A stretch of 64,000 nucleotides of DNA from Clostridiales bacterium (GCA_017617995.1 JAFZVE010000049.1:62001-126000), one strand, 5' to 3'; positions 2,540-56,970 are shown, counted from the first letter of the stretch. The notes: generated by a model not told the origin, from the letters alone. Translations and numbers: made by a program.

Positions 2540-4504
2540 TCAAGCGCGACCTGCTTTGTGCATCTTCTTTTCTTCGTACATCTTGGCGTCGGCGATGCGC
2601 AGATATTCTTCGGAGTAGGTGCGGATGGCCTCTTCGTCTACGGTTCCGTCGCCGTTGACATCGGTGTTGTTGTCGAGCTCAGGCGGAATCTTGATGCAGC
2701 TTCCGATACTGACACGAAGCGGGTATTTCTTCCGGTCGCGTTTGACGTGTTTCTCGATGTATTCACATAGTGTCCTTGCGTAGGTGGTGGCTTTGGCCTC
2801 GGAATAGTCCTTGGCCAGAACGACAAACTCGTCACCGCCGGTCCGCAGACACACTTCACCATTTGTTGCGGCGAAGCGCATGCCATCTGCGATTGTACAG
2901 AGACTGTAGTCGCCCTCGGTATGTCCGTAGTTATCGTTGATGAGCTTTAAGTCATCCATGTCGATCATCATGACTCCGATGGGGATCCGCTTCTGCTGGC
3001 ATTCCTTGAAGATCTCGGAGAAGAACATCTCGTAACCGTGACGATTGAACAGGTTGGTCAGCATATCCCGGTTATACAGGTTCTCGAGCCTCTGGACAGC
3101 GAGATTCATATTCTGACGGATCCTCCAGTTCTCGAGCATCGAGCCGAGGTTCACGATCCAGGACTTCATATGCAGGGATTCATGTGCTTCGTTCTGAGGA
3201 GAGACGATCAGATATCCCATATAGTACTGGAGGTGATGGATCGAGAAGATGTAATAAGGATTGGGATCGGCGAGCAGTGCAGGAGGGAGGAGGTCCTTCT
3301 TTCGGAAGGTCTCCTTTTTTGCCGGATTGGCTCCGATAAAGCCGGCTACGACAGTCATCTCTTCGTCGATCTCGGAGAAGTGATCATTGATGACACGCTG
3401 GGTATCCCAGCCGGGCGCGAGGCACAGAAGCATATCCGTAAAGCCCGAATCAATGGCTGAGTTCTTCGTGATCTCGACGAAGCACTCCTCGAGCGAAGAG
3501 GCGTTGGAGACACTCAGGATCAGGTTGGTCTGAGACTGGACCAGTTCGGAAACGCGGTCAAGTCTTCGGATATACATACTTCGGATATCATCGATGTTAT
3601 ATGTCGTCATGGGCTTACAGCCGCAGGACTGGTTACATACGAGTTCACCGAGGATCAGGCGGTTCTTACCGACATCGACGCCTTCCCACATCTGAAGAAG
3701 TGCATAGATGCTCTCATAGCCGGACTTGAAGAAAGGCTGCGCTCCGGTCGTCAGGGACGGATAGCCCTGATAGGCCTCGTCCAGTCCGTCGTATCCGGTC
3801 ACGAGAAAATCGCCCGGGATCTCGATCCCCCGCCTGTGACAGGCATCGATCAGACCGGTGGCCGAGTAGTCATTCGCACATACTACCGCATCCGGATACT
3901 TCTTGCCGTGCTTCCTGCAGTCTTCGAGGATATAGTCGAGAGCAGGGTCTCCACAGTCGTGCCAGAGCGTGCCGTAGTAGACTTTGGATGCGTCATACAC
4001 GATGCCGTTCTTCTCCAGTCCCGAGCGGTACGCGTCGATACGTGTCTGGGTGAAGTTTCGTTCCGGGATACCGGCCACATGGTAGATGTCCCGGCAGCCA
4101 TGTACGTTGATGAGATGATCCACGATACTCTCGAAGGTCTTGAGCTCGTCGTTGACGACGTTATAATACCTTTCGTCGTAGCCGCCGACGTTGATGATCG
4201 GGATCGTCACCTCGGAGAGACGGTCGTCGAGGTGCTTCAGGGTATAAGGACCGTAAGTCAGATCGATGCGGATGATACCGTCGAAATCATCGAGGTCCGG
4301 AAGTTCGAAGGAGACGATATCTCCCTCGTCGTAGTGATTGTACTGTTCGTAGATTTTGTTGCTGAAGTTGTCGCTGAAAGAAGCGAAGTAGATGACCTTG
4401 ATGCCAAGCTCGACCGCGGCTTTACTGATGCCTTCCTGGATGGAGTGCGTCATCGGTTCATAGATATTCGGCGAAAAGACTGCTACTTTTTTTCTCGTGC
4501 CCAT
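2540..4504 (-). CDS. Diguanylate cyclase with LacI-type periplasmic-binding-like sensor domain
   Basis: A soluble 654-residue protein. Residues about 5-290 resemble the ligand-binding core of LacI/GalR regulators (VAVFSPNIYE at the start; DAVVCANDYSATGLIDA and IPGDFLVTGYDG later), but no helix-turn-helix precedes it. A linker region of about 150 residues follows. The C-terminal GGDEF domain has the intact GGDEF signature at 556-560 and YGHTEGD upstream, so it should make cyclic di-GMP. There is no signal peptide, so the sensor is cytoplasmic and probably binds a small metabolite or sugar. The start has GAGGAAT upstream. It is transcribed divergently from the hydratase gene. Confidence 0.88.
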   Translation of the reverse strand: MGTRKKVAVFSPNIYEPMTHSIQEGISKAAVELGIKVIYFASFSDNFSNKIYEQYNHYDEGDIVSFELPDLDDFDGIIRIDLTYGPYTLKHLDDRLSEVTIPIINVGGYDERYYNVVNDELKTFESIVDHLINVHGCRDIYHVAGIPERNFTQTRIDAYRSGLEKNGIVYDASKVYYGTLWHDCGDPALDYILEDCRKHGKKYPDAVVCANDYSATGLIDACHRRGIEIPGDFLVTGYDGLDEAYQGYPSLTTGAQPFFKSGYESIYALLQMWEGVDVGKNRLILGELVCNQSCGCKPMTTYNIDDIRSMYIRRLDRVSELVQSQTNLILSVSNASSLEECFVEITKNSAIDSGFTDMLLCLAPGWDTQRVINDHFSEIDEEMTVVAGFIGANPAKKETFRKKDLLPPALLADPNPYYIFSIHHLQYYMGYLIVSPQNEAHESLHMKSWIVNLGSMLENWRIRQNMNLAVQRLENLYNRDMLTNLFNRHGYEMFFSEIFKECQQKRIPIGVMMIDMDDLKLINDNYGHTEGDYSLCTIADGMRFAATNGEVCLRTGGDEFVVLAKDYSEAKATTYARTLCEYIEKHVKRDRKKYPLRVSIGSCIKIPPELDNNTDVNGDGTVDEEAIRTYSEEYLRIADAKMYEEKKMHKAGRA

Positions 4505-4601
4505 ATGCTTATTCCTCAGGTTTCTGATGCTTCCGCGTGAAAAACAGTTCCAAACATAATACCATCATACACGGGAAGTGTTTCAAAGTTGTGAACAGTT
4601 C

Positions 4602-4629
4602 TTGCAAGTTCACGGGATTCCCTTATAAT
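4602..4629 (+). promoter_or_regulatory. Sigma-A promoter of the hydratase-GH127 operon
   Basis: TTGCAA (4602-4607), a 16-bp spacer and a consensus TATAAT (4624-4629). The resulting leader of about 75 nt contains an inverted repeat at 4649-4679: TGCTTTTT/AAAAAGCA flanked by GGCC on both sides. Confidence 0.75.
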
Positions 4630-4711
4630 AGGAGTGTTCGAAACAGAGGGCCGGGTGCTTTTTGAAAAAGCATAGGCCTTGGGCGATATACAAACACTTA
4701 GGAGGAGCACT

Positions 4712-7000
4712 ATGATTTCTTTACTTGATTCCGGCGCGTATCTTCTGCGCGGAAGTGAAATTATCCCGGATAACCAGGAGGCGGCAGCAGCGATCCTTGC
4801 CAAGACCGGTAAGTCCATCAGCAAAGAGGATGCGAAGAAGGAGACCATCGCGTATGGCATCTTAAGAGACCATAACACCTCCGATAACATGGAGAAACTG
4901 AAGATCAAGTTCGATAAGCTGACTTCTCACGATATCACTTTTGTCGGTATCATCCAGACCGCACGTGCTTCGGGTCTTACGAAGTTCCCGGTTCCGTATG
5001 TTCTGACGAACTGCCACAACTCCCTCTGTGCCGTTGGTGGTACGATCAACGAGGATGACCACATGTTCGGTCTTTCCTGCGCAAAGAAGTACGGCGGCGT
5101 ATATGTACCGCCGCATCAGGCTGTTATCCACCAGTTCGCACGTGAGATGCTCGCCGGCGGCGGAAGGATGATCCTCGGTTCGGACTCCCACACACGTTAT
5201 GGTGCTCTCGGTACCATGGCTATGGGTGAGGGTGGACCGGAGCTCGTTAAGCAGCTCCTCAACCAGACCTATGACATCAACATGCCGGGCGTTGTCGCGA
5301 TCTACCTCAAGGGTGCACCGGTCAAGGGTGTCGGTCCGCAGGACGTGGCTCTGGCCATCATCGGTGCGGTTTTCGCAAACGGCTACGTAAAGAACAAGGT
5401 CATGGAGTTCGTCGGACCTGGTGTTGCCTCCCTGTCCACGGACTTCCGTATCGGTGTCGACGTTATGACAACAGAAACTACCTGCCTTTCTTCCATCTGG
5501 CAGACCGACGACGAGGTCAAGGAATTCTATGAGATCCATGGCCGCGGCGGCGACTATAAGGAACTGAATCCGGGCGAGGTCGCTTACTACGATGGCGTCG
5601 TAGAGATCGATCTTTCCACGATCAAGCCGATGATCGCGATGCCGTTCCATCCGAGTAACACATACACGATCGAAGACCTCAAGGCGAACCTCGACGATAT
5701 CCTCGAGGATGTCGAGAAGCGTGCGAAGGTCTCCCTCGGTGATAAGGTAGACTTCTCCTTGAGAAGCAAGGTCGTAAACGGCAAGTTCATGGTCGATCAG
5801 GGAATCATCGCAGGCTGCGCCGGCGGTGGATTTGAGAACATCTGCGCCGCAGCCGATATCCTGAAGGGCAACTACATCGGCTCCGATAAGTTCACGCTCT
5901 CCGTATATCCGGCTTCCATGCCTGTTTACATGGAACTCGTCAGAAACGGCTGTGCCGCGACCATCATGGAGACCGGTGCGATCATCAAGACCGCGTTCTG
6001 CGGACCGTGCTTCGGTGCCGGTGATACACCTGCAAACAATGCATTCAGTATCCGTCACTCGACGAGAAACTTCCCGAACCGTGAAGGCTCTAAGCTTCAG
6101 AACGGTCAGATCTCTTCCGTTGCTCTTATGGATGCCCGCTCGATCGCCGCGACAGCCGCGAATAAGGGTGAACTCACGGCAGCGACCGAGTTCGACGGTG
6201 AGTTCGGCAAGTATAAGTACTTCTTCGATCAGAAGATCTACGCGAACCGTGTATTCGACAGCAAGGGCGTTGCTGATCCGGATCAGGAGATCCACTTCGG
6301 TCCGAACATCAAGGACTGGCCGGCTATGGTCGCTCTTACCGATAACCTCGTTCTGCGCTGCGTATCTGAGATCCACGATCCGGTTACCACGACAGACGAG
6401 TTGATCCCGTCCGGTGAAACTTCTTCCTTCCGTTCCAACCCGCTGGGTCTTGCTGAGTTCACACTGAGCCGTAAGGATCCGGAGTACGTCGGACGTGCCA
6501 AGGAGATCCAGAAGGTCGAGAAGGCAAGAGAAGACGGCGAGAAGCTCTGCGAGCTCTTCCCGGAGATCCATACCGTCATGCAGACCATCAAGAAGGACTT
6601 CCCGGATGTCCATAAGACAAACACGGGTTTTGGTTCCACGATCTTTGCCGTGAAGCCGGGTGACGGTTCTGCCCGTGAGCAGGCGGCTTCCTGCCAGAAG
6701 GTACTCGGCGGCTGGGCGAACATCGCAAACGAATACGCGACCAAGCGCTATAGATCAAACCTCATCAACTGGGGTATGCTCCCGTTCCTGATCAAAGAGG
6801 GTGAGCTTCCGTTTAAGAATCTCGATTACATTTTCATCCCGGGCATCAAGGCCGCAGTAGAGAATAAGACAGAGGTCATCAAGGCCTACACCGTATGTGA
6901 AGATGGCCTTAAGGAGTTCGACCTGAGACTGGGCGACCTGACCGATGAAGAACGTCAGATCATCCTGAAGGGATGCCTCATCAACTACAATCGCGTATAA
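4712..7000 (+). CDS. Aconitase-family hydratase (YbhJ-like)
   Basis: A 762-residue cytosolic iron-sulfur hydro-lyase of the aconitase superfamily. Candidate 4Fe-4S ligands are Cys369 (GCAGGG) and the pair Cys430/Cys433 (CGPC), spaced as in aconitases. The usual CTNSS context of the first Cys is replaced by [18 protein letters not shown] is the conserved N-terminal motif. Its overall form resembles the hydratase subgroup that includes E. coli YbhJ rather than citrate-cycle AcnA or AcnB, so the substrate is unknown. Start ATG 4712 follows GGAGGA. Codon use is strongly biased, as in highly expressed genes. The GH127 gene starts 1 nt after its stop. Confidence 0.85.
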
Positions 7001-49234: not shown

Positions 49235-49768
49235 TTAGATCTTGCCGGAAATCTTCAAGATCAGATAAATTACGCCGAGAAGAATCGCGAACCTTACGAG
49301 CATATAGATAAGGACGCGTAAACAACTTGCGGACTTGGTCTGCGAATTCAGATAATACAGGGAACAGTTCTGATTCGGATCAGAAGGGTCATAACAGATC
49401 GTCTGGGTCTTTCTTCCCATAAATGATGCAGAGGCTTCACCTTTACCTCGATAGGTCTGCCCATCGGCTTCAAATTCGTACGTGATAATGAAATAGGAAT
49501 CGACATCGTCTTTTCCCGTCTCCGGATCACGTCTGCCGGAACTGACATGGACCCAGTGATGCTCCAGGATCCGTCCCTCGGCTCGACCGGTATAGTTCTT
49601 ATACTTTTCCAGAGCGCGTGCCTTGGCTTTCTTTTCGGTAGATCGGCTCCACCAGATCAGAAGAACAAAGAAGGCTAGCAGGATGCCGAGCTCGAGCAGT
49701 GCTCCGGGTACCTTATCCGGGTTTATATTCGTACTTAGATTCGAGAGTAGATCCATAATCAGATTCAT
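49235..49768 (-). CDS. DUF3592-like membrane protein
   Basis: 177 residues. Membrane segments lie at about 20-40 and 150-175, around a beta-rich soluble part (GRAEGRILEHHWVHVSSGRR, YFIITYEFEADGQTYRGKGE, TICYDPSDPNQNCSLYY). The pattern resembles DUF3592 proteins, whose role is unknown. ATG 49768 follows GGAGG by 5 nt. It directly follows the zinc-ribbon gene upstream on the same strand and is probably co-transcribed. Confidence 0.6.
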   Translation of the reverse strand: MNLIMDLLSNLSTNINPDKVPGALLELGILLAFFVLLIWWSRSTEKKAKARALEKYKNYTGRAEGRILEHHWVHVSSGRRDPETGKDDVDSYFIITYEFEADGQTYRGKGEASASFMGRKTQTICYDPSDPNQNCSLYYLNSQTKSASCLRVLIYMLVRFAILLGVIYLILKISGKI

Positions 49769-49798
49769 AGGAACCTCCGGCACTACACGCTATGTCTA

Positions 49799-51283
49799 TC
49801 AGATGTAACCGAAGTTGGAAAGCTCCGCCAGCACGATGAGCGCAAGGATCGCAAACGTGATGATCAGGGGCTTAATCAGATACGTTTGTCCTATATTCCG
49901 GATCTCATAGATCACCCAGTCTTCGCTTTCCACTTCGCTCTTCGAACCACAATACGGACAGTTCCTGGTCTTAAATGCATTGAAACTCGCGCCGCAGGTC
50001 CGGCACTGGATCTTCGCGATCGAAAAGTTAGATGTGATTGGCACGTCGGTTCTGCGTCCTGCCTTGATCCGGTAGGCTTCGCGTCCCGATTTGATCTTAT
50101 CACCCAGATCACGCGTGTTCTCCACGAAAAGATCGCCCGTGACATAGACGTGATTGCCTTCCTCTTTGACCTTCTTACAGGACATCCATCCGCTGAAAGA
50201 GCAGTCGATCACGTTATCAAATTCCGAACTGACATCGCCGCCCTCATAGAACGGAAGGTTTTCACGGCTGTCGGAAAATACTACGAGTTTGAAAAGGGAA
50301 GTGATCCTCGAAGAGAATTTCTCGAAGGTATATTCCGAACTGATCTTGGCCATCTTCGCGGCGAATCTTTTCCGGGAATTTCCTACGGAGAATGCCGGTG
50401 CGCCCGAGCTCATCTGGCGTCCGGCGGCTCCGAAAATCGAGAGGATCCAGATGAAATATCCGAAGATGGGACTGACGATGACCATGCCGATAATGTAGAA
50501 GACGAGCCATTGAGGAGTGATCTGGAATTTGCCTCCTGGAATCGCACCGAAGCGGGCTTGCAGCACGGAGAAAAGAAGAAACAGTGGGATCGTCACGGGA
50601 AGGGCATATAGACCGAACTTAATGATCGTCTTCCAGATCGGATCTTTCCTTCCGGAGGGATCGTAGGAAAAGAAGTAATTCGATACCTTCGGATACAGTT
50701 CCGACATCTTAAAAGAGGTACCGCACTGGCTGCATCCTTCCTGGAGTTCCCTGATCGTGGAGACCGCGCCGCAGTTCGGACAGCAGTAGGTGTCCGAACT
50801 GACATCTTCGCCCGCGCGCACATCGACGACCGTCTCGTAAATGGCCTGCGGTTCTCTATGCTTATATGTCTTCATGTTGGATCGGGAAAACTTCTTCTTG
50901 TGATCGACGAAGCCGACGGACCACGAGGTCTCATACTGACCATCGGTCCAGGAACGGACTTTATTGAATCCTTCCTTAAAGTTTGCCCCCGGGATCATCT
51001 CTTCCTCGAGGGTGAGGCCTCTGTTCGCGATACGGTCTCTCTGCAGTTCCAGACAATACCGAAGTTCACGGTCGGCCGACATCACCTTTGCACCCGGCTC
51101 GCCGGCGTGTTTTAATTCCTCGCGAAATGCGGCTGCCACCGCAGCTCTTTCTTTCGACCGGTCTTCCGCAGTGCCACCCGCGATCATCGCCGCCGCTTCT
51201 TCCACGCTTACGCCTGATGCCAGAGCGATCGCTTCTTCTTCCGTACGCCAATTCTGATTTGGATTCGTATTATTCTCACTCAT
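49799..51283 (-). CDS. Zinc-ribbon membrane protein, Tim44-like region possible
   Basis: 494 residues. A central zinc ribbon (CCPNCGAVSTIRELQEGCSQCG, about 170-200) and a second near the C-terminus (CRTCGASFNAFKTRNCPYCGS, about 430-455) flank membrane segments (about 225-290) and a soluble domain. A final membrane segment (about 470-490) ends the protein. Parts resemble Tim44-like zinc-ribbon proteins of Firmicutes, but the match is weak. It differs from the pair at 32-36 kb. ATG 51283 is chosen over GTG 51292 because GGAG lies 8 nt before it. Confidence 0.6.
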   Translation of the reverse strand: MSENNTNPNQNWRTEEEAIALASGVSVEEAAAMIAGGTAEDRSKERAAVAAAFREELKHAGEPGAKVMSADRELRYCLELQRDRIANRGLTLEEEMIPGANFKEGFNKVRSWTDGQYETSWSVGFVDHKKKFSRSNMKTYKHREPQAIYETVVDVRAGEDVSSDTYCCPNCGAVSTIRELQEGCSQCGTSFKMSELYPKVSNYFFSYDPSGRKDPIWKTIIKFGLYALPVTIPLFLLFSVLQARFGAIPGGKFQITPQWLVFYIIGMVIVSPIFGYFIWILSIFGAAGRQMSSGAPAFSVGNSRKRFAAKMAKISSEYTFEKFSSRITSLFKLVVFSDSRENLPFYEGGDVSSEFDNVIDCSFSGWMSCKKVKEEGNHVYVTGDLFVENTRDLGDKIKSGREAYRIKAGRRTDVPITSNFSIAKIQCRTCGASFNAFKTRNCPYCGSKSEVESEDWVIYEIRNIGQTYLIKPLIITFAILALIVLAELSNFGYI

Positions 51284-51372
51284 ACACGCCACTCCAATAT
51301 CCCCATGCCCAAGTTTACTCTATCTCTATCATACCATGTCAGACTCAATCGACAAAATGATATGTTCAGACT

Positions 51373-52128
51373 TTAGTTGACGATATGATGTGCCTCTTCG
51401 ATGAAAAGTTCGTCGTATCCGGCTCTGTAATGTACGATGCGTGCATGGGCAAACATGCCGTCTTCCGATGTTAGTCTGAAATCGAACCAGTCATCAAAAT
51501 CATCCTTCATGTTACGGATCTCGGCTTTCGGATACATAGCGGCATACTGTTCTTTGAAATACTCATACAGCTCCTCGCCACGGCCGTTTGTGATTCTCAG
51601 CGTTACCGTGGTTTGGCGGTCCATATATCCGGCGGTATCTTCGGGCTGCAGGTTCGTAACGATATCTTTTTCATAGTCCCAATTGCAGCAGAAGGATACT
51701 TCCGTCATGCAGATTCCCGAATCGAGGGGGTAACCGTATCCGAAATTAAGACTGGCGTCCATGCTAACGGTGTAAGGATGCTTGCCCATCTCTACGATAG
51801 AAGGAAGTCTGGCTTCGAGTTCCTCGGAGCTCTCACCGTCAATCAGCTCCAGAGTAAGGTTCCTGTGGCAGAATTCGAAGATCTCCTGATCCGACATATC
51901 ATCTAACGGAACTTCGACCTTAGCCATAGGGTCATCACTATCTGTCGTAGTTTCTTTTTCGACCTCTTCATCGGAAACGATTGCTTCGATATCTTTATCT
52001 TCCGTTTTCGCCTTTTTCTTCGTTTCTTCCGGATCACTCTTCTTGCTCGCGCAGGCGGTGGTGGAGCCGATAATCGATACTACTGTGAATGTAACTGCGA
52101 TGATTCTGATAATTGCTTTCGTTTTCAT
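51373..52128 (-). CDS. Lipoprotein related to the ECF fusion ectodomain (distant copy)
   Basis: 252 residues minus the stop. The signal peptide MKTKAIIRIIAVTFTVVSIIGS with lipobox TTAC is nearly identical to that of the gene at 52201-52911. A charged linker leads to a domain beginning PLDDMSDQEIFEFCHRNLTLE, which echoes the DxMTxxE start of the ECF-fusion ectodomain but diverges afterwards. DNA upstream of the start, read in frame, gives AIRKGTGI, matching AVKKGTGI inside the sigma gene. I infer descent from that gene. Function unknown. Confidence 0.65.
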   Translation of the reverse strand: MKTKAIIRIIAVTFTVVSIIGSTTACASKKSDPEETKKKAKTEDKDIEAIVSDEEVEKETTTDSDDPMAKVEVPLDDMSDQEIFEFCHRNLTLELIDGESSEELEARLPSIVEMGKHPYTVSMDASLNFGYGYPLDSGICMTEVSFCCNWDYEKDIVTNLQPEDTAGYMDRQTTVTLRITNGRGEELYEYFKEQYAAMYPKAEIRNMKDDFDDWFDFRLTSEDGMFAHARIVHYRAGYDELFIEEAHHIVN

Positions 52129-52160
52129 AATTCCTGTTCCTTTCCTGATCGCATGTGGTG
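52083..52160 (-). repeat. Duplicated leader/signal-peptide segment, copy 1
   Basis: About 78 nt covering the first codons and upstream leader of the lipoprotein gene, nearly identical to 52864-52943. It includes TTTCCTGATCGCATGT upstream of the start. Confidence 0.7.
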
Positions 52161-52200
52161 CGAAGGGCAAACTGTTAGCAGAATGGTTTTGGCTCTTCGA

Positions 52201-52911
52201 TTAACCATTGAGCGGGAAATCGAAGGAGATCACATAGTCTCCCACTTGATTCACTTGCAACGTGCAGGTTTTTCTGTCGCATTGAAATCCTACGTACCAG
52301 GAGTTTTCGTGTTTTATGTCTGCGTTGATCTCGAAACCTTCCGACTGGATCTTTGTTACGATTGCTTCCGCTACCTCGAAGGCATAATCCTTATCTTCGA
52401 TATGCACCTCTAAGGCTATGTGTCCGGTCCCGTCAAAAGTCGGATCACATTTCATGCCGGAGAAGATAGAGATCCTGCTGATATAGCATGTGGTGTCAGA
52501 AGAGGATCCGTAGAAGAACCAGCTGAATTCGTCATCTTTACTCTTGAAAAGTGTGCAGCCATCCGTGATGATGTTCTCGTAATAATCTTTGCTGTACATA
52601 CCGGACTCTACACGGGTCGTTCTCCAGAGATCTTCGACGATCTCATCTGTTGTCATTCCGTCCAGACGGAGAATGATCGAGTCTTCAGTGATCGGTCTGG
52701 TCTCCGAAAGAACCTCGGTCGACTCTGTCAGCAGAGGAAGCTCTGAGTTGTCTGAATCTCCGGCTTTTTTGGTAGATTCTTCGATCTGGGTATGCTTTTC
52801 CTTGCTCGATTCCGTATCATTCTTCTTGATGGTGCAGGCAGTGGTTGCACCGATGATCGATACTGCTGTGAATGTAACTGCGATGATTCTGATGATAGCT
52901 TTCGTTTTCAT
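52201..52911 (-). CDS. Lipoprotein homologous to the ECF fusion ectodomain
   Basis: 236 residues. The signal peptide ends in lipobox TTAC, followed by a charged Ser/Thr linker and a domain from about residue 80. That domain aligns with the C-terminal part of the sigma-fusion protein: LDGMTTDEIVEDLWRTTRVE against MDDMTPEECVENLWNTTNVH, and later FSWFFYGSS against FSWIFGRND, CDPTFDGTG against CDPTYKGND. Both end in YVI(S/D)F(D/I). It has its own copy of the ECF-type promoter at 53035-53067. It is probably an extracytoplasmic competitor, partner or sensor for the membrane sigma factor. Confidence 0.75.
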   Translation of the reverse strand: MKTKAIIRIIAVTFTAVSIIGATTACTIKKNDTESSKEKHTQIEESTKKAGDSDNSELPLLTESTEVLSETRPITEDSIILRLDGMTTDEIVEDLWRTTRVESGMYSKDYYENIITDGCTLFKSKDDEFSWFFYGSSSDTTCYISRISIFSGMKCDPTFDGTGHIALEVHIEDKDYAFEVAEAIVTKIQSEGFEINADIKHENSWYVGFQCDRKTCTLQVNQVGDYVISFDFPLNG

Positions 52912-52943
52912 AATCCATATTCCTTTCCTGATCGCATGTAGCG
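52864..52943 (-). repeat. Duplicated leader/signal-peptide segment, copy 2
   Basis: The partner of 52083-52160. The two leaders are more alike than the mature domains they precede. Confidence 0.7.
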
Positions 52944-53034
52944 TTAAGGGCTTTCCTGCTTTCCGAAGAAACAGCCTGTATCGATGCGGGTAACAGGCTG
53001 CGTTTTTGCCGCCTGTGTATCCGCATCTGCCCTA

Positions 53035-53067
53035 TAGACGAATAACAGATGTGAAATATTGGGTGGT
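53035..53067 (-). promoter_or_regulatory. ECF-type promoter of the lipoprotein gene
   Basis: On the minus strand: ACCACCCAATA (53067-53057), 16 nt, CGTCTATA (from 53040). The same two boxes with the same spacing precede the sigma-fusion gene, and the 27 nt around the -10 box are identical. CGTC is a typical ECF -10. Confidence 0.7.
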
Positions 53068-53156
53068 TTTGAAAAATTTTCGGACAGACTTTACTACGAG
53101 GTAGAATACTGCCTGAAACAGATCATTTTCCGAAATGGAATAATATCTGAATTAGT

Positions 53157-54566
53157 CTATTTCCCGATGAGCGGAATGATGAAGTCGATGACATAATCAG
53201 TAAGGAAATATGCCCGCGCGTCAAAGACTCTTCCATTTCCCTTAAACCGCACGGTTCTCTGGGTAGAGACTTTTCCGTCATCACTTTTGACTTCGTAGCC
53301 TTCTGCCTCGAGACGATCGATGATCAGTTCGAGTACTTCTTCTGAATAAGCCTCGTCACCAAGATAGACCAGCAGATGGACATAGGAATAGTCATCGTTT
53401 CCTTTATAAGTCGGATCACACTCGTCTTGCGAGTACACTTCCAATGTAGAGATGAAGCGCTTGGCGTCGTTTCTTCCGAAGATCCAGGAAAACTTGTCAT
53501 AATTCAGCAGGGTGAGATCACCTGATAATACGATCTTCTCGCAATACTCCTCGCGTGTCATGCCTGTATGTACATTAGTGGTGTTCCAGAGGTTCTCGAC
53601 GCACTCCTCCGGGGTCATATCATCCATGTAGACATAGATTGAGCCGTCCGTGGACGAGCCGTAGATGTCTTCACTATGCGTTCCCGAGCTGATCGGTGCG
53701 GATGAGGATCCGTCATCCGGATCGATCGATCTGCGCCTGTCTTGGTTCGTTATGATCGCATTTTTATCATTCTTTTTAGAAGAGGATTTCTGTGTAAATC
53801 CTATTGTAATGCCTATTAAAGCACCGACGACAACGACTGCCGCGATTGATCCGATAATTGCTTTTTTCATCATGATACCTGTCCCTTTCTTTACTGCTTC
53901 TGCAGTACTTGACGCGGCTTCCCCTGCGGAAGCCTCAGCAGATGCGGACAGGTGGCTGAGTAACGAAGCGGGCATGGGCTTAAAGGGTACCTGCTCGGCT
54001 TCTTTGATAAACAGACTACTTAAGAACGGCACGACCATAAACAGCTTGGTGTCATTATCTTTTTCATATTTCTCTACCTCCTTCTTGATTTTCTTCTTGG
54101 CGAAGCTCAGACGCCACAGAATTGTTCCCAGGGGAACACCAAGAACTTCGGAGATCTCTTTCGTCGTCATCTCGTCGAAATAGTAGAGGATGAGCGTTCT
54201 TCGGATGTCTTCCGACAGAGAATTCTCGATGATGTCCATGATCACCTTTCTCATCTCGGCCGACTCGACGAGCGAGTCCGGCAAGAAATCCTCAGGCACA
54301 TCCTCTACGTTTTCGAAGAATTCATCTTCTACATTGATGGTCTTCGTCAGTTTGATCCGATCGAGACACTTGTTGGCCGCCGTCTTCTTCAGCCAGGCGT
54401 GGACCTTGCTTTTATCCTGGATCGAGTCGTAGGACTTGATCAGGGAAAGGAAAGTCTCCTGGACGATGTCCTCTGCATCGGCCTCGTTCTTAAGAAGAGA
54501 CATGGCCGTCCAGTACACCGCACGGTATGAGTCGTTGTAGATCTTTTCGAGTTCCTGGTTTGTCAC
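53157..54566 (-). CDS. ECF sigma factor fused to membrane anchor and extracytoplasmic domain
   Basis: 469 residues. Sigma region 2 (about 10-80: AEDIVQETFLSLIKSYDSI and VHAWLKKTAANKCLDRIK) and region 4 (about 115-165: LYYFDEMTTKEISEVLGVPLGTILWRLSFAKKKIKKE) form a normal ECF sigma factor. A linker of about 60 residues leads to one membrane segment (about 236-258). A Ser/Asp-rich stretch and a domain (about 300-469) related to the lipoproteins downstream follow. GTG start with AGGAGG. Its promoter box recurs before the first lipoprotein gene, which suggests autoregulation. An internal MM (232-233) with an upstream purine-rich stretch might start a separate anchor protein. Confidence 0.85.
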   Translation of the reverse strand: MTNQELEKIYNDSYRAVYWTAMSLLKNEADAEDIVQETFLSLIKSYDSIQDKSKVHAWLKKTAANKCLDRIKLTKTINVEDEFFENVEDVPEDFLPDSLVESAEMRKVIMDIIENSLSEDIRRTLILYYFDEMTTKEISEVLGVPLGTILWRLSFAKKKIKKEVEKYEKDNDTKLFMVVPFLSSLFIKEAEQVPFKPMPASLLSHLSASAEASAGEAASSTAEAVKKGTGIMMKKAIIGSIAAVVVVGALIGITIGFTQKSSSKKNDKNAIITNQDRRRSIDPDDGSSSAPISSGTHSEDIYGSSTDGSIYVYMDDMTPEECVENLWNTTNVHTGMTREEYCEKIVLSGDLTLLNYDKFSWIFGRNDAKRFISTLEVYSQDECDPTYKGNDDYSYVHLLVYLGDEAYSEEVLELIIDRLEAEGYEVKSDDGKVSTQRTVRFKGNGRVFDARAYFLTDYVIDFIIPLIGK

Positions 54567-54600
54567 TTTCTTTCGCCTCCTGTTATCCGCATCTGCCCTA

Positions 54601-54633
54601 TAGACGAATAGCGGAAGAGGTTTATTGGGTGGT
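54601..54633 (-). promoter_or_regulatory. ECF-type autoregulatory promoter of the sigma-fusion gene
   Basis: On the minus strand: ACCACCCAATA (54633-54623), 16 nt, CGTCTATA (from 54606), about 35 nt upstream of the GTG start. Boxes and spacing match 53035-53067. Confidence 0.72.
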
Positions 54634-54805: not shown

Positions 54806-55177
54806 ATGTACGAGAATAGTCAATACAGCCCGCCTATGATCGTGAACTCCCGTGCCGGTCAGGAAGTGGCGGAGGCCAACATCAAGATCGGCGATATGAC
54901 CGGCAAGCTCGCAGAGCTGGAAATCAAACTGCAGGCCATGTATAGCGTGATGATCGAGCAGGGAATCGACCCGAAACTCTTTGACGCGAAGATCGAAGAG
55001 ATCGTGAATAACCGTTCTGCAAAAACTCCGACTTCCCAATCCCGGGCACAGAAGAAGGCGAAACAATGTCCGGAATGCGGGGTGGCTGTCAAACAGTCCA
55101 CCGAGGATCCGTTGGTCGGAAGATGCCTGTATTGCGGGGCAAAAGTGACATTCTATCCGTCGTTCACGGATAGTTAA
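54806..55177 (+). CDS. Small protein with C-terminal zinc ribbon
   Basis: 123 residues, soluble. A helical N-terminal part (EVAEANIKIGDMTGKLAELEIKLQAMYSVMIEQG) that could form a coiled coil, a short basic linker, and a C-terminal zinc ribbon CPECGVAV...CLYCGAK (about 88-113). I know no function. RBS AAAGGGGG before ATG. Its stop overlaps the stop of the convergent HD-GYP gene by 4 nt. Confidence 0.68.
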   Translation: MYENSQYSPPMIVNSRAGQEVAEANIKIGDMTGKLAELEIKLQAMYSVMIEQGIDPKLFDAKIEEIVNNRSAKTPTSQSRAQKKAKQCPECGVAVKQSTEDPLVGRCLYCGAKVTFYPSFTDS

Positions 55178-56763
55178 GATTTAAAATCGTTTTCATCTTT
55201 GTCGGGTTCGTACCCCGGATTTAACCGTATCAGTATTTCCTCGACTTCCGGTAATGCTTCGATAAAGACTTCTACGCACTTGGGATCGAACTGTGTTCCT
55301 TTTCCCTCTTCAATAATCTGTACGGATTTGGAAAAAGGAAGGGCCGGCTTGTACACGCGGGGAGAGGTCAGCGCGTCAAATACATCCGCCACTGCCATGA
55401 TTCGTGCGGACAGAGGTATAGCTTCACCTTGCAGTCCTTCCGGATAGCCTTTGCCGTCCCAGCGCTCGTGATGCGATGCTGCCATATTGCGCGCTTCAAG
55501 TAGAAACCCGTCGTCTTCGATGTCCTGACTGGCTTTGTCTATAATTGCCCTGCCGAGCGTCGTGTGTGTTTTCATTGTCTCAAACTCGTCGGAAGTTAGT
55601 TTTCCGGGTTTGTTCAGTATCACATCGGAGATCTTGATTTTCCCGATGTCGTGAAGCGGCGCCGATTTTACCACATCTTCAATATACTTCGGCGTCAATA
55701 TATCAGTATAGTAGCCCTTACGTGCTAATCCTTCCAGAATGATCTTTACGTATGCGGCGGTCTTCTGGATATGTTCCCCTGTGTCTGAATCACGAACCTC
55801 TACCATGTCTGCCATCAGGATCATGAGTCCGTCTTTCATCTTTAACGTGTTTTCGGCGTACTGCATGATGTCGTGCAGTTGCTTGGCCATCGCAGTTTCC
55901 ATCTTGCTGACGGATGTATATAGTTCTCCTACTTCATTCCTGGCACGGATGTTCTTTTGCTCTAGTTTTTTCGCACTTTCGCCCATGGCGGGATAGTCAT
56001 CTATTTTGGTGACAAAATCATTCGCGGCATTCGTGATACTGGTGATCGGATAGATGAGAAAATACTCGATAATGGCTATGTAGATCCCGGTTATGACGAC
56101 AGCAAAGAGCGTGACAACAATTGCAATCGTGCGGAGATATTTGTTAGTTTCTTTGCTGATGTCATTTTTGATATCGATCTCGACGCAGAGAAGACCTGCG
56201 GGATTTCCTTCGCTGTCAAAGATGACCTTATAACCGTTCAGCATATGGCCGTATTCTTCAGAATACCCATCGAGCACAGAACTCTCCTGCCGGCGGCTTT
56301 TCACGGCGTCCTGCAAGGCATATAAGGTTTCATCCTCGAAACTTCCTTCTTCACAAGTCGTACCGAGATAAGTATAGAGCCCGCCATTTGCCAGTTCTTC
56401 TGACGTCTTTGTGTTGATCGCATATGTGAGACTGTGGATATCGTCGATGTCTTCGAAATAGACGGCATACAGATATGAAATGTCGGAATTTTCCTTTATC
56501 CTGTTGAGACGTTCGCGCATCTCTTCGTATTCAGGCGTCATGTCGCGGGCAGAAATCAGGTCTCCGAAAGAGTAATCCGTTGTGATCGTATATGCATTCT
56601 CAAGTACGGTTTTCGTGTATTTCTCATAGCTTGCCATTACACTTTCTTTATACAAGTGATAGCCGATATACGCTACCACTACTGTCAGAACGGTAATGGT
56701 AATGAAAGAAAACAAAGCTGCAAAGATCTTGATGCTTAAACCCCTGTGTTGTCTGTTATTCAA
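55174..56763 (-). CDS. Cache/HAMP/HD-GYP cyclic-di-GMP phosphodiesterase
   Basis: 529 residues. Membrane segments at about 13-35 and 215-237 enclose an extracytoplasmic sensor domain (about 40-212, Cache-like). A HAMP linker (about 240-300) and an HD-GYP domain (about 310-515) follow. H371-D372 in LHDIGKIK and HHERWDGKGYPEG from 431 are intact, so hydrolysis of cyclic di-GMP is expected. TTG 56763 is my start choice because GGGGTG lies about 8 nt upstream; TTG 56778 is an alternative. Confidence 0.88.
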   Translation of the reverse strand: MNNRQHRGLSIKIFAALFSFITITVLTVVVAYIGYHLYKESVMASYEKYTKTVLENAYTITTDYSFGDLISARDMTPEYEEMRERLNRIKENSDISYLYAVYFEDIDDIHSLTYAINTKTSEELANGGLYTYLGTTCEEGSFEDETLYALQDAVKSRRQESSVLDGYSEEYGHMLNGYKVIFDSEGNPAGLLCVEIDIKNDISKETNKYLRTIAIVVTLFAVVITGIYIAIIEYFLIYPITSITNAANDFVTKIDDYPAMGESAKKLEQKNIRARNEVGELYTSVSKMETAMAKQLHDIMQYAENTLKMKDGLMILMADMVEVRDSDTGEHIQKTAAYVKIILEGLARKGYYTDILTPKYIEDVVKSAPLHDIGKIKISDVILNKPGKLTSDEFETMKTHTTLGRAIIDKASQDIEDDGFLLEARNMAASHHERWDGKGYPEGLQGEAIPLSARIMAVADVFDALTSPRVYKPALPFSKSVQIIEEGKGTQFDPKCVEVFIEALPEVEEILIRLNPGYEPDKDENDFKS

Positions 56764-56970
56764 TTTTCTACACCCCAAAGAAGACGCGGTGAAAAACTGC
56801 GCATATGTTTTTGCTCTGCGTCACGCTGAAACTATTATCCCCATGTGAGTGAATCCTCACGATTTTTATTATATCATGTAATATGACTTCCGAAATGTTG
56901 TTTATCATAGTGAGAGCCTTCAGACAAGAAGAGCATTATCTATGAAAGACCATCCGGTCATGACTGTGGA

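Follow-up and report, generated by a model that had tools for sequence, protein, structure and literature searches.

A membrane-tethered ECF sigma factor in Clostridia with a lipoprotein paralogue of its own ectodomain

The window analysed here is a 64,000-nt stretch of DNA belonging to a 2.78-Mb MAG from a gut bacterium, the relatives of which are mostly rumen Clostridia MAGs, some of them named Saccharofermentans. Three genes in the window are at the centre of this study:

53157..54566, minus strand: gene F, a tethered sigma factor of 469 aa with a GTG start, one unbroken ORF
52201..52911, minus strand: gene L1, a lipoprotein and sigma-less paralogue of F
51373..52128, minus strand: gene L2, a lipoprotein with an L1-type signal module and a different mature domain

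No anti-sigma gene was seen beside F. Upstream of F, on the same strand, an HD-domain protein (HD_5, c-di-GMP phosphodiesterase-like) with a membrane anchor apparent by eye is encoded at 55174-56778, and a small divergent zinc-ribbon gene sits between the two. The lipoprotein genes are followed, at 49235-51292, by genes for a 497-aa membrane protein with a zinc ribbon and for a DUF3592 protein. The zinc-ribbon gene likewise follows in the related loci L015, L016, L018, L020 and L028, and in L102 an L2-type lipoprotein is adjoined by a DUF3592-like protein.

F is ordered as ECF sigma regions 2 and 4, a cytoplasmic linker of about 45 residues, one transmembrane helix and an ectodomain of about 164 residues, with the following parts:

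54078..54554, minus strand: ECF sigma domain, residues 5-163 (TIGR02937 sigma70-ECF, E 4e-29)
53937..54077, minus strand: conserved cytoplasmic linker, residues 164-210, PFLxxLFxKEAEQVxxKPMPASL, from conservation among paralogues
53868..53891, minus strand: junction KKGTGIMM, its DNA similar to the ribosome-binding and start region of L2 and, to a lesser degree, to that of L1
53796..53864, minus strand: single transmembrane segment, about residues 235-257, from hydropathy
53160..53651, minus strand: ectodomain, residues 306-469, predicted alpha/beta fold (AF2 model), no Pfam family

Both Sigma70_r2 and Sigma70_r4_2 score above their Pfam gathering thresholds, and F has regions 2 and 4 without region 3, as is characteristic of ECF (group IV) sigma factors; the best-matching solved chain for its sigma part is SigW. 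Residues 229-260 are the sole strongly hydrophobic stretch of the protein by hydropathy. Pfam searches of F returned neither a zinc-finger nor an RsgI domain, nor an anti-sigma/FecR-type domain at E up to 1; the linker carries no Cys/His cluster, and region 4 is present. Among paralogues whose ectodomains are unrelated the linker nevertheless keeps 76% mean column identity, and the full-length model predicts helices within and just beyond it at residues 181-191 and 200-214. This model is poor overall (pTM 0.43), autoinhibition by the linker is not visible in it, and residues 209-305, which span the transmembrane region, form a long, flexible stretch of low confidence. A frameshift or mis-assembly behind the fusion was considered and rejected, as the roughly 90 tethered sigma ORFs found in relatives are single frames.

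The ectodomain of F is predicted with better confidence (AF2 model, pLDDT 84, pTM 0.83) to be an alpha/beta domain. Its closest folds were DcrB (Z 6.7 over 86 residues, rmsd 3.1), SciW (Z 6.2) and LpqN (Z 4.9), with LppA also retrieved, all of them below the Z of 8 that is the caution level of the comparison tool. We take these four to be envelope-type proteins sharing a Mog1/PsbP/DcrB-like fold, and such a fold for the modelled ectodomain is only a lead. Searches of the ectodomain against Pfam and against the sequences of solved structures gave nothing significant, and a PDB fold search gave no match at E <= 0.001.

L1 aligns with everything in F from the membrane segment onwards (residues 232-468, reaching the C-terminus; 31%, 103 bits, E 9e-30; phmmer 2e-32), such that its signal peptide is the counterpart of the F transmembrane segment and its mature part that of the ectodomain; the first-pass motifs DxMTxxExVExLWxTT, FSWxF and CDPT can all be seen. 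By sequence and pattern reading, the lipobox Cys lies at residue 26, after GATTA in L1 and after GSTTA in L2, and orthologues have a Cys at nearly the same position. The resemblance of L2 to L1 is confined to the first ~100 residues (42%, E 1e-16), and the DNA of the two genes is 86% identical over 142 nt spanning the ribosome-binding site and signal peptide. Compared by hhalign, the L2 mature domain and the F ectodomain are not significantly related (probability 1.3%, E 0.04); the L2 mature domain comes from another lipoprotein family, of which free members exist in a different genus (L102, L104). L1-type and L2-type domains are joined as one protein in L017 and in L042 of genome G016. At the latter (4001-5257 and 6160-6600) the fusion ectodomain has an internal deletion and a frameshift disrupts the L2-type part of the joined lipoprotein, a locus decaying in one lineage. 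The first-pass annotation had described one gene encoding sigma regions 2 and 4, a membrane segment and an ectodomain, on which the 469-codon ORF, TIGR02937, Pfam and hydropathy agree, and its claim that the next gene encodes a lipoprotein matching that ectodomain is borne out by an alignment far above chance. It had also proposed a second, more distant lipoprotein homologue: L2 is indeed a lipoprotein, but the profile comparison did not show its mature domain to be homologous to F.

The similarity between F and L1 extends to the DNA in front of them:

54584..54632, minus strand: F promoter and leader, with CCACCCAATA (-35 side), CGTCTA (-10 side), then TAGGGCAGATGCGGATA; a motif common to the tethered-sigma paralogues
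53018..53066, minus strand: copy of this promoter and leader before L1, with a 25-nt identical element

The arrangement CCACCCAATA-N16-CGTCTA followed by TAGGGCAGATGCGGATA thus lies upstream of both genes, and their promoter/leader regions share 82% identity across 78 nt (E 7e-16). Versions of the element precede the paralogous tethered sigmas, GATGCGG occurs upstream in 79 of 88 tethered sigma genes, and the -35 and -10 before L1 are preserved in the seven orthologous loci shown. In the host genome the pattern GTCTN7AGATGCGG has seven matches: tethered sigma genes account for five, L1 for one, and the last is apparently a chance site. A search for a wider regulon by promoter pattern, allowing two mismatches, gave 10 matches versus 10 in the reversed control, with none callable beyond the family. 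As ECF sigma factors usually autoregulate (PMC6056542), we infer that the promoter is recognised by F itself. Within F, the Shine-Dalgarno sequence for an internal translation start at KKGTGIM is hardly above synonymous shuffles (mean z -0.45); its strength is -6.5 kcal/mol versus -10.9 at true starts and is comparable to that of L1 and L2 themselves. These values give such an internal start no support.

Directly after the -10, the leader CAGATGCGGATA (54584-54600 and 53018-53034, and in most tethered-sigma promoters) is conserved as strongly as the promoter; an operator, the initial transcribed region and an RNA leader are candidate roles. Four loci (L029, L030, L032 and L037) carry an inverted partner, CCGCATC or CGCATC, in the promoter spacer. 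The same promoter and leader also occur without a tethered sigma at G000:C21:24043-24074 (L189), some distance upstream of a DUF3592-type gene, possibly belonging to the regulon or left over from a locus that has decayed.

The first-pass annotation had presented a tethered ECF with a free homologue of its ectodomain; that picture stands, except that the fusion is no one-off. The host genome encodes five further tethered sigmas that have this sigma and linker in common (54-72% identity in the part that they share) and differ in their ectodomains, and a profile of the linker found about 107 matches in 40 of the 58 genomes of the host's family, in two of five genera. Across the class the profile matched in only 5 of 216 sampled genomes, one match being a clear tethered ECF of a distant family (L093, G254), in which the sigma-linker-transmembrane architecture is kept and the ectodomain is different, SH3-like by eye. 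The linker profile probably understates how widespread tethered ECFs are in Clostridia.

Sampling of the family gave 80 stretches and from these 91 unique tethered sigmas, in which one sigma and linker chassis is combined with 18 ectodomain clusters. Pfam recognises DUF6273, a DUF5640-like stretch, LRR_5, RHS repeats and C-type lectin among the ectodomains, and gave no match for several others, that of F among them. Conservation falls sharply at the membrane, from mostly 0.65-0.94 in sigma and linker blocks to mostly 0.2-0.3 in the ectodomain. One locus (L182, G031:C14) holds three tethered sigmas in tandem, one with a C-type lectin ectodomain (PF00059, E 3e-16).

Ninety tethered sigmas had room downstream, and in 38 the next gene encodes a lipoprotein; such a partner is not obligatory, since the other 52 have no adjoining lipoprotein. 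An ectodomain-type domain, resembling that of some tethered sigma, is found in 18 of these 38 next-gene lipoproteins (10 of the 18 matching the ectodomain of their own neighbour) versus 5 of the 67 remaining lipoproteins (Fisher P 4e-6) and 1 of the 740 remaining ORFs. The counts take in orthologous loci and lack phylogenetic independence. Tandems are also seen with other ectodomains, in L172, L173, L176 and L104, the sigma frame being broken in the last. Sequence comparison thus indicates that lipoproteins and tethered-sigma ectodomains exchange domains.

The fusion-lipoprotein order noted at first pass recurs in relatives: F and L1 stand together in all eight sampled genus genomes with a strongly matching F-type fusion, and L1 is intact in all eight. 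Sister-genus fusions with the same ectodomain lack L1, and the L1 lipoproteins form one clade (support 99/100 in a tree that is midpoint-rooted only). The DNA of the F linker-transmembrane junction matches the start region of L2 (77% over 48 nt) and, more weakly, that of L1. An independent sigma-less copy, a membrane-anchored protein without a lipobox, begins at the same junction in L172; the DNA upstream of its start codon can still be recognised as linker-coding sequence from the sigma gene, now out of frame, with ~80% identity over 197 nt across the junction. Because L172 keeps this linker-coding DNA, the sigma-less copies appear to have been born from the sigma gene. The direction was most likely from sigma gene to lipoprotein, and an origin of L1 by duplication of the sigma gene and loss of the sigma part is strongly indicated. 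By the Nei-Gojobori method, on three pairs, dN/dS was 0.04-0.06 for sigma, 0-0.14 for the linker and 0.14-0.24 for the ectodomain, and 0.10-0.22 for the L1 mature domain, with 0.33-1.04 for the stalks. These ratios indicate that both F and L1 are maintained by purifying selection.

The opposite direction, in which the lipoprotein domain came first and a sigma gene took it up to give a derived fusion, has in its favour a free lipoprotein with a related domain in another genus (L073/L186) and the unrelated signal peptides of some downstream lipoproteins (L104, L150), and for these same reasons exchange may in general run both ways. For F and L1, however, we consider such a capture quite unlikely: fusions occur in both genera and L1 in one only, the L1 leader resembles the promoter and start region of the sigma gene, and the linker-coding DNA fossil in L172 lies upstream of the copy. 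L1 and L2 could also be gene debris, sigma-less duplicates without a role, given that they originate by duplication, that L2-type sequence is frameshifted in G016 and that most tethered sigmas have no such neighbour. Yet L1 is intact in all eight genomes with the strongly matching fusion, its lipobox is kept, its promoter is conserved and the dN/dS of its mature domain is low, as given above; debris is already unlikely for L1, and for the pair we find it very hard to credit.

We propose, with a probability of roughly 0.55, that F is a one-protein transmembrane switch, proteolytically released and autoregulating, which additionally gives rise to a lipoprotein form of its sensor domain on the surface, either effector or decoy. 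At rest, the sigma domain would be held at the membrane by F's own helix and probably silenced by the conserved linker; that linker or tether keeps sigma inactive is suggested by the lack of an anti-sigma gene beside F and by a linker about as conserved as sigma. On contact of the ectodomain with its cue, F would be cut first on the outside and then within the membrane, freeing the sigma domain, a release argued by analogy with IutY (PMC8999054), and a site-2-protease (M50) gene is present in the genome. The freed sigma would transcribe from CCACCCAATA-N16-CGTCTA its own gene, as positive autoregulation, together with L1-L2. L1 would be the F sensor domain re-expressed on the surface as a lipoprotein, most likely binding the sensor's cue as a useful product (capture) or a signal-damping decoy, and L1 and F might compete for or share ligand. 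The initial reading of fusion and free homologue as a signalling circuit gains from the shared promoter element before F and L1, which makes the circuit plausibly autoregulatory.

One-component membrane regulators that work without cleavage exist, and a tethered sigma might likewise act at the membrane without proteolysis, a ligand shifting the grip of the linker and RNA polymerase being recruited to DNA near the membrane. The flexible, low-confidence residues 209-305 of the model could give the reach for this. However, Prc and RseP release IutY, the nearest tethered ECF to have been characterised (PMC8999054), and a site-2 protease is encoded here; we regard action without cleavage as unlikely. 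Alternatively, the downstream lipoprotein may be a receptor subunit, a co-receptor pairing with the ectodomain, and not an effector or decoy. In favour of a co-receptor are the shared domain, the shared promoter element and the constant gene order, but the partner is missing beside other-genus fusions of the same domain, which leaves this role improbable in our judgement. Going by sequence, L1 may be product, decoy or co-receptor.

For the family as a whole, we tentatively suggest, as a possibility that we would rate below even odds, that a constant sigma and linker chassis reads one promoter type under at least 18 ectodomain kinds and that its gene repeatedly spawns a sigma-less copy of the sensor, with KKGTGIM as start site and under the same promoter. 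If this is true, different outside cues converge on one promoter, and each response brings with it a form of its sensor that acts in capture or as a decoy. With the same sigma, the same linker, the same promoter type and 18 sensor clusters, the family is a simple natural set in which two questions, how a tethered sigma becomes active and how new signalling circuits originate, become directly testable in one system. A route by which receptors give rise to surface proteins is documented by the L172 DNA fossil, a sigma gene on its way to a free membrane-protein gene, and by the older pair F-L1; the modular chassis could serve as a ready-made, one-gene membrane biosensor.

A sensor domain related to the regulated product (beta-lactamase/PBP) is familiar from BlaR1/MecR1, a membrane protease receptor that acts on a repressor, with no sigma factor. 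IutY (ECF243, Pseudomonas putida) is closer to F in combining sigma and membrane sensor in one protein, a sigma fused to a membrane anti-sigma and released by Prc and RseP (PMC8999054). However, its C-terminal part is the anti-sigma of iron cell-surface signalling, whereas F has no recognisable anti-sigma domain and the ectodomains of its family vary freely. ECF52 (SCO4117, Streptomyces), which regulates its own gene, and also ECF48 and ECF53 share with F an ECF sigma, a transmembrane segment and an extracytoplasmic domain, including carbohydrate-binding ones, but ECF52, which is reported to be exclusive to Actinobacteria, has a zinc-finger domain and a proline-rich region (PMC5826349, PMC8999054). 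The mark of the ECF52/48/53 groups, a zinc-finger anti-sigma domain between sigma and transmembrane segment, was not found in F by Pfam. In the literature searched, no sensor-derived lipoprotein was mentioned for these sigmas.

The Sigma-I/RsgI systems of Clostridium thermocellum resemble the family in their many paralogous sensors, varied ectodomains, autoregulation and a sensor resembling a regulon product, the GH10-type sensor of RsgI6 going with xylanase genes regulated by sigma-I6, e.g., xyn10Z (PMC4711584, PMC6056542). L1, in sharing the sensor's domain and promoter element, recalls RsgI6/sigma-I6. Sigma-I and its anti-sigma RsgI are, in contrast, two proteins, sigma-I lacks region 4, and the regulated product is an enzyme rather than a duplicate derived from the sensor gene itself. 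In the openly accessible literature searched, no description was found of tethered sigmas in Clostridia, of this chassis or of sensor-derived lipoproteins. Tethered ECFs (ECF48/52/53, IutY) and the resemblance of sensor and product (RsgI6/sigma-I6) are already known; set against ECF52/48/53, ECF243 and Sigma-I/RsgI, the combination of a tethered ECF with a sensor-derived lipoprotein looks new.
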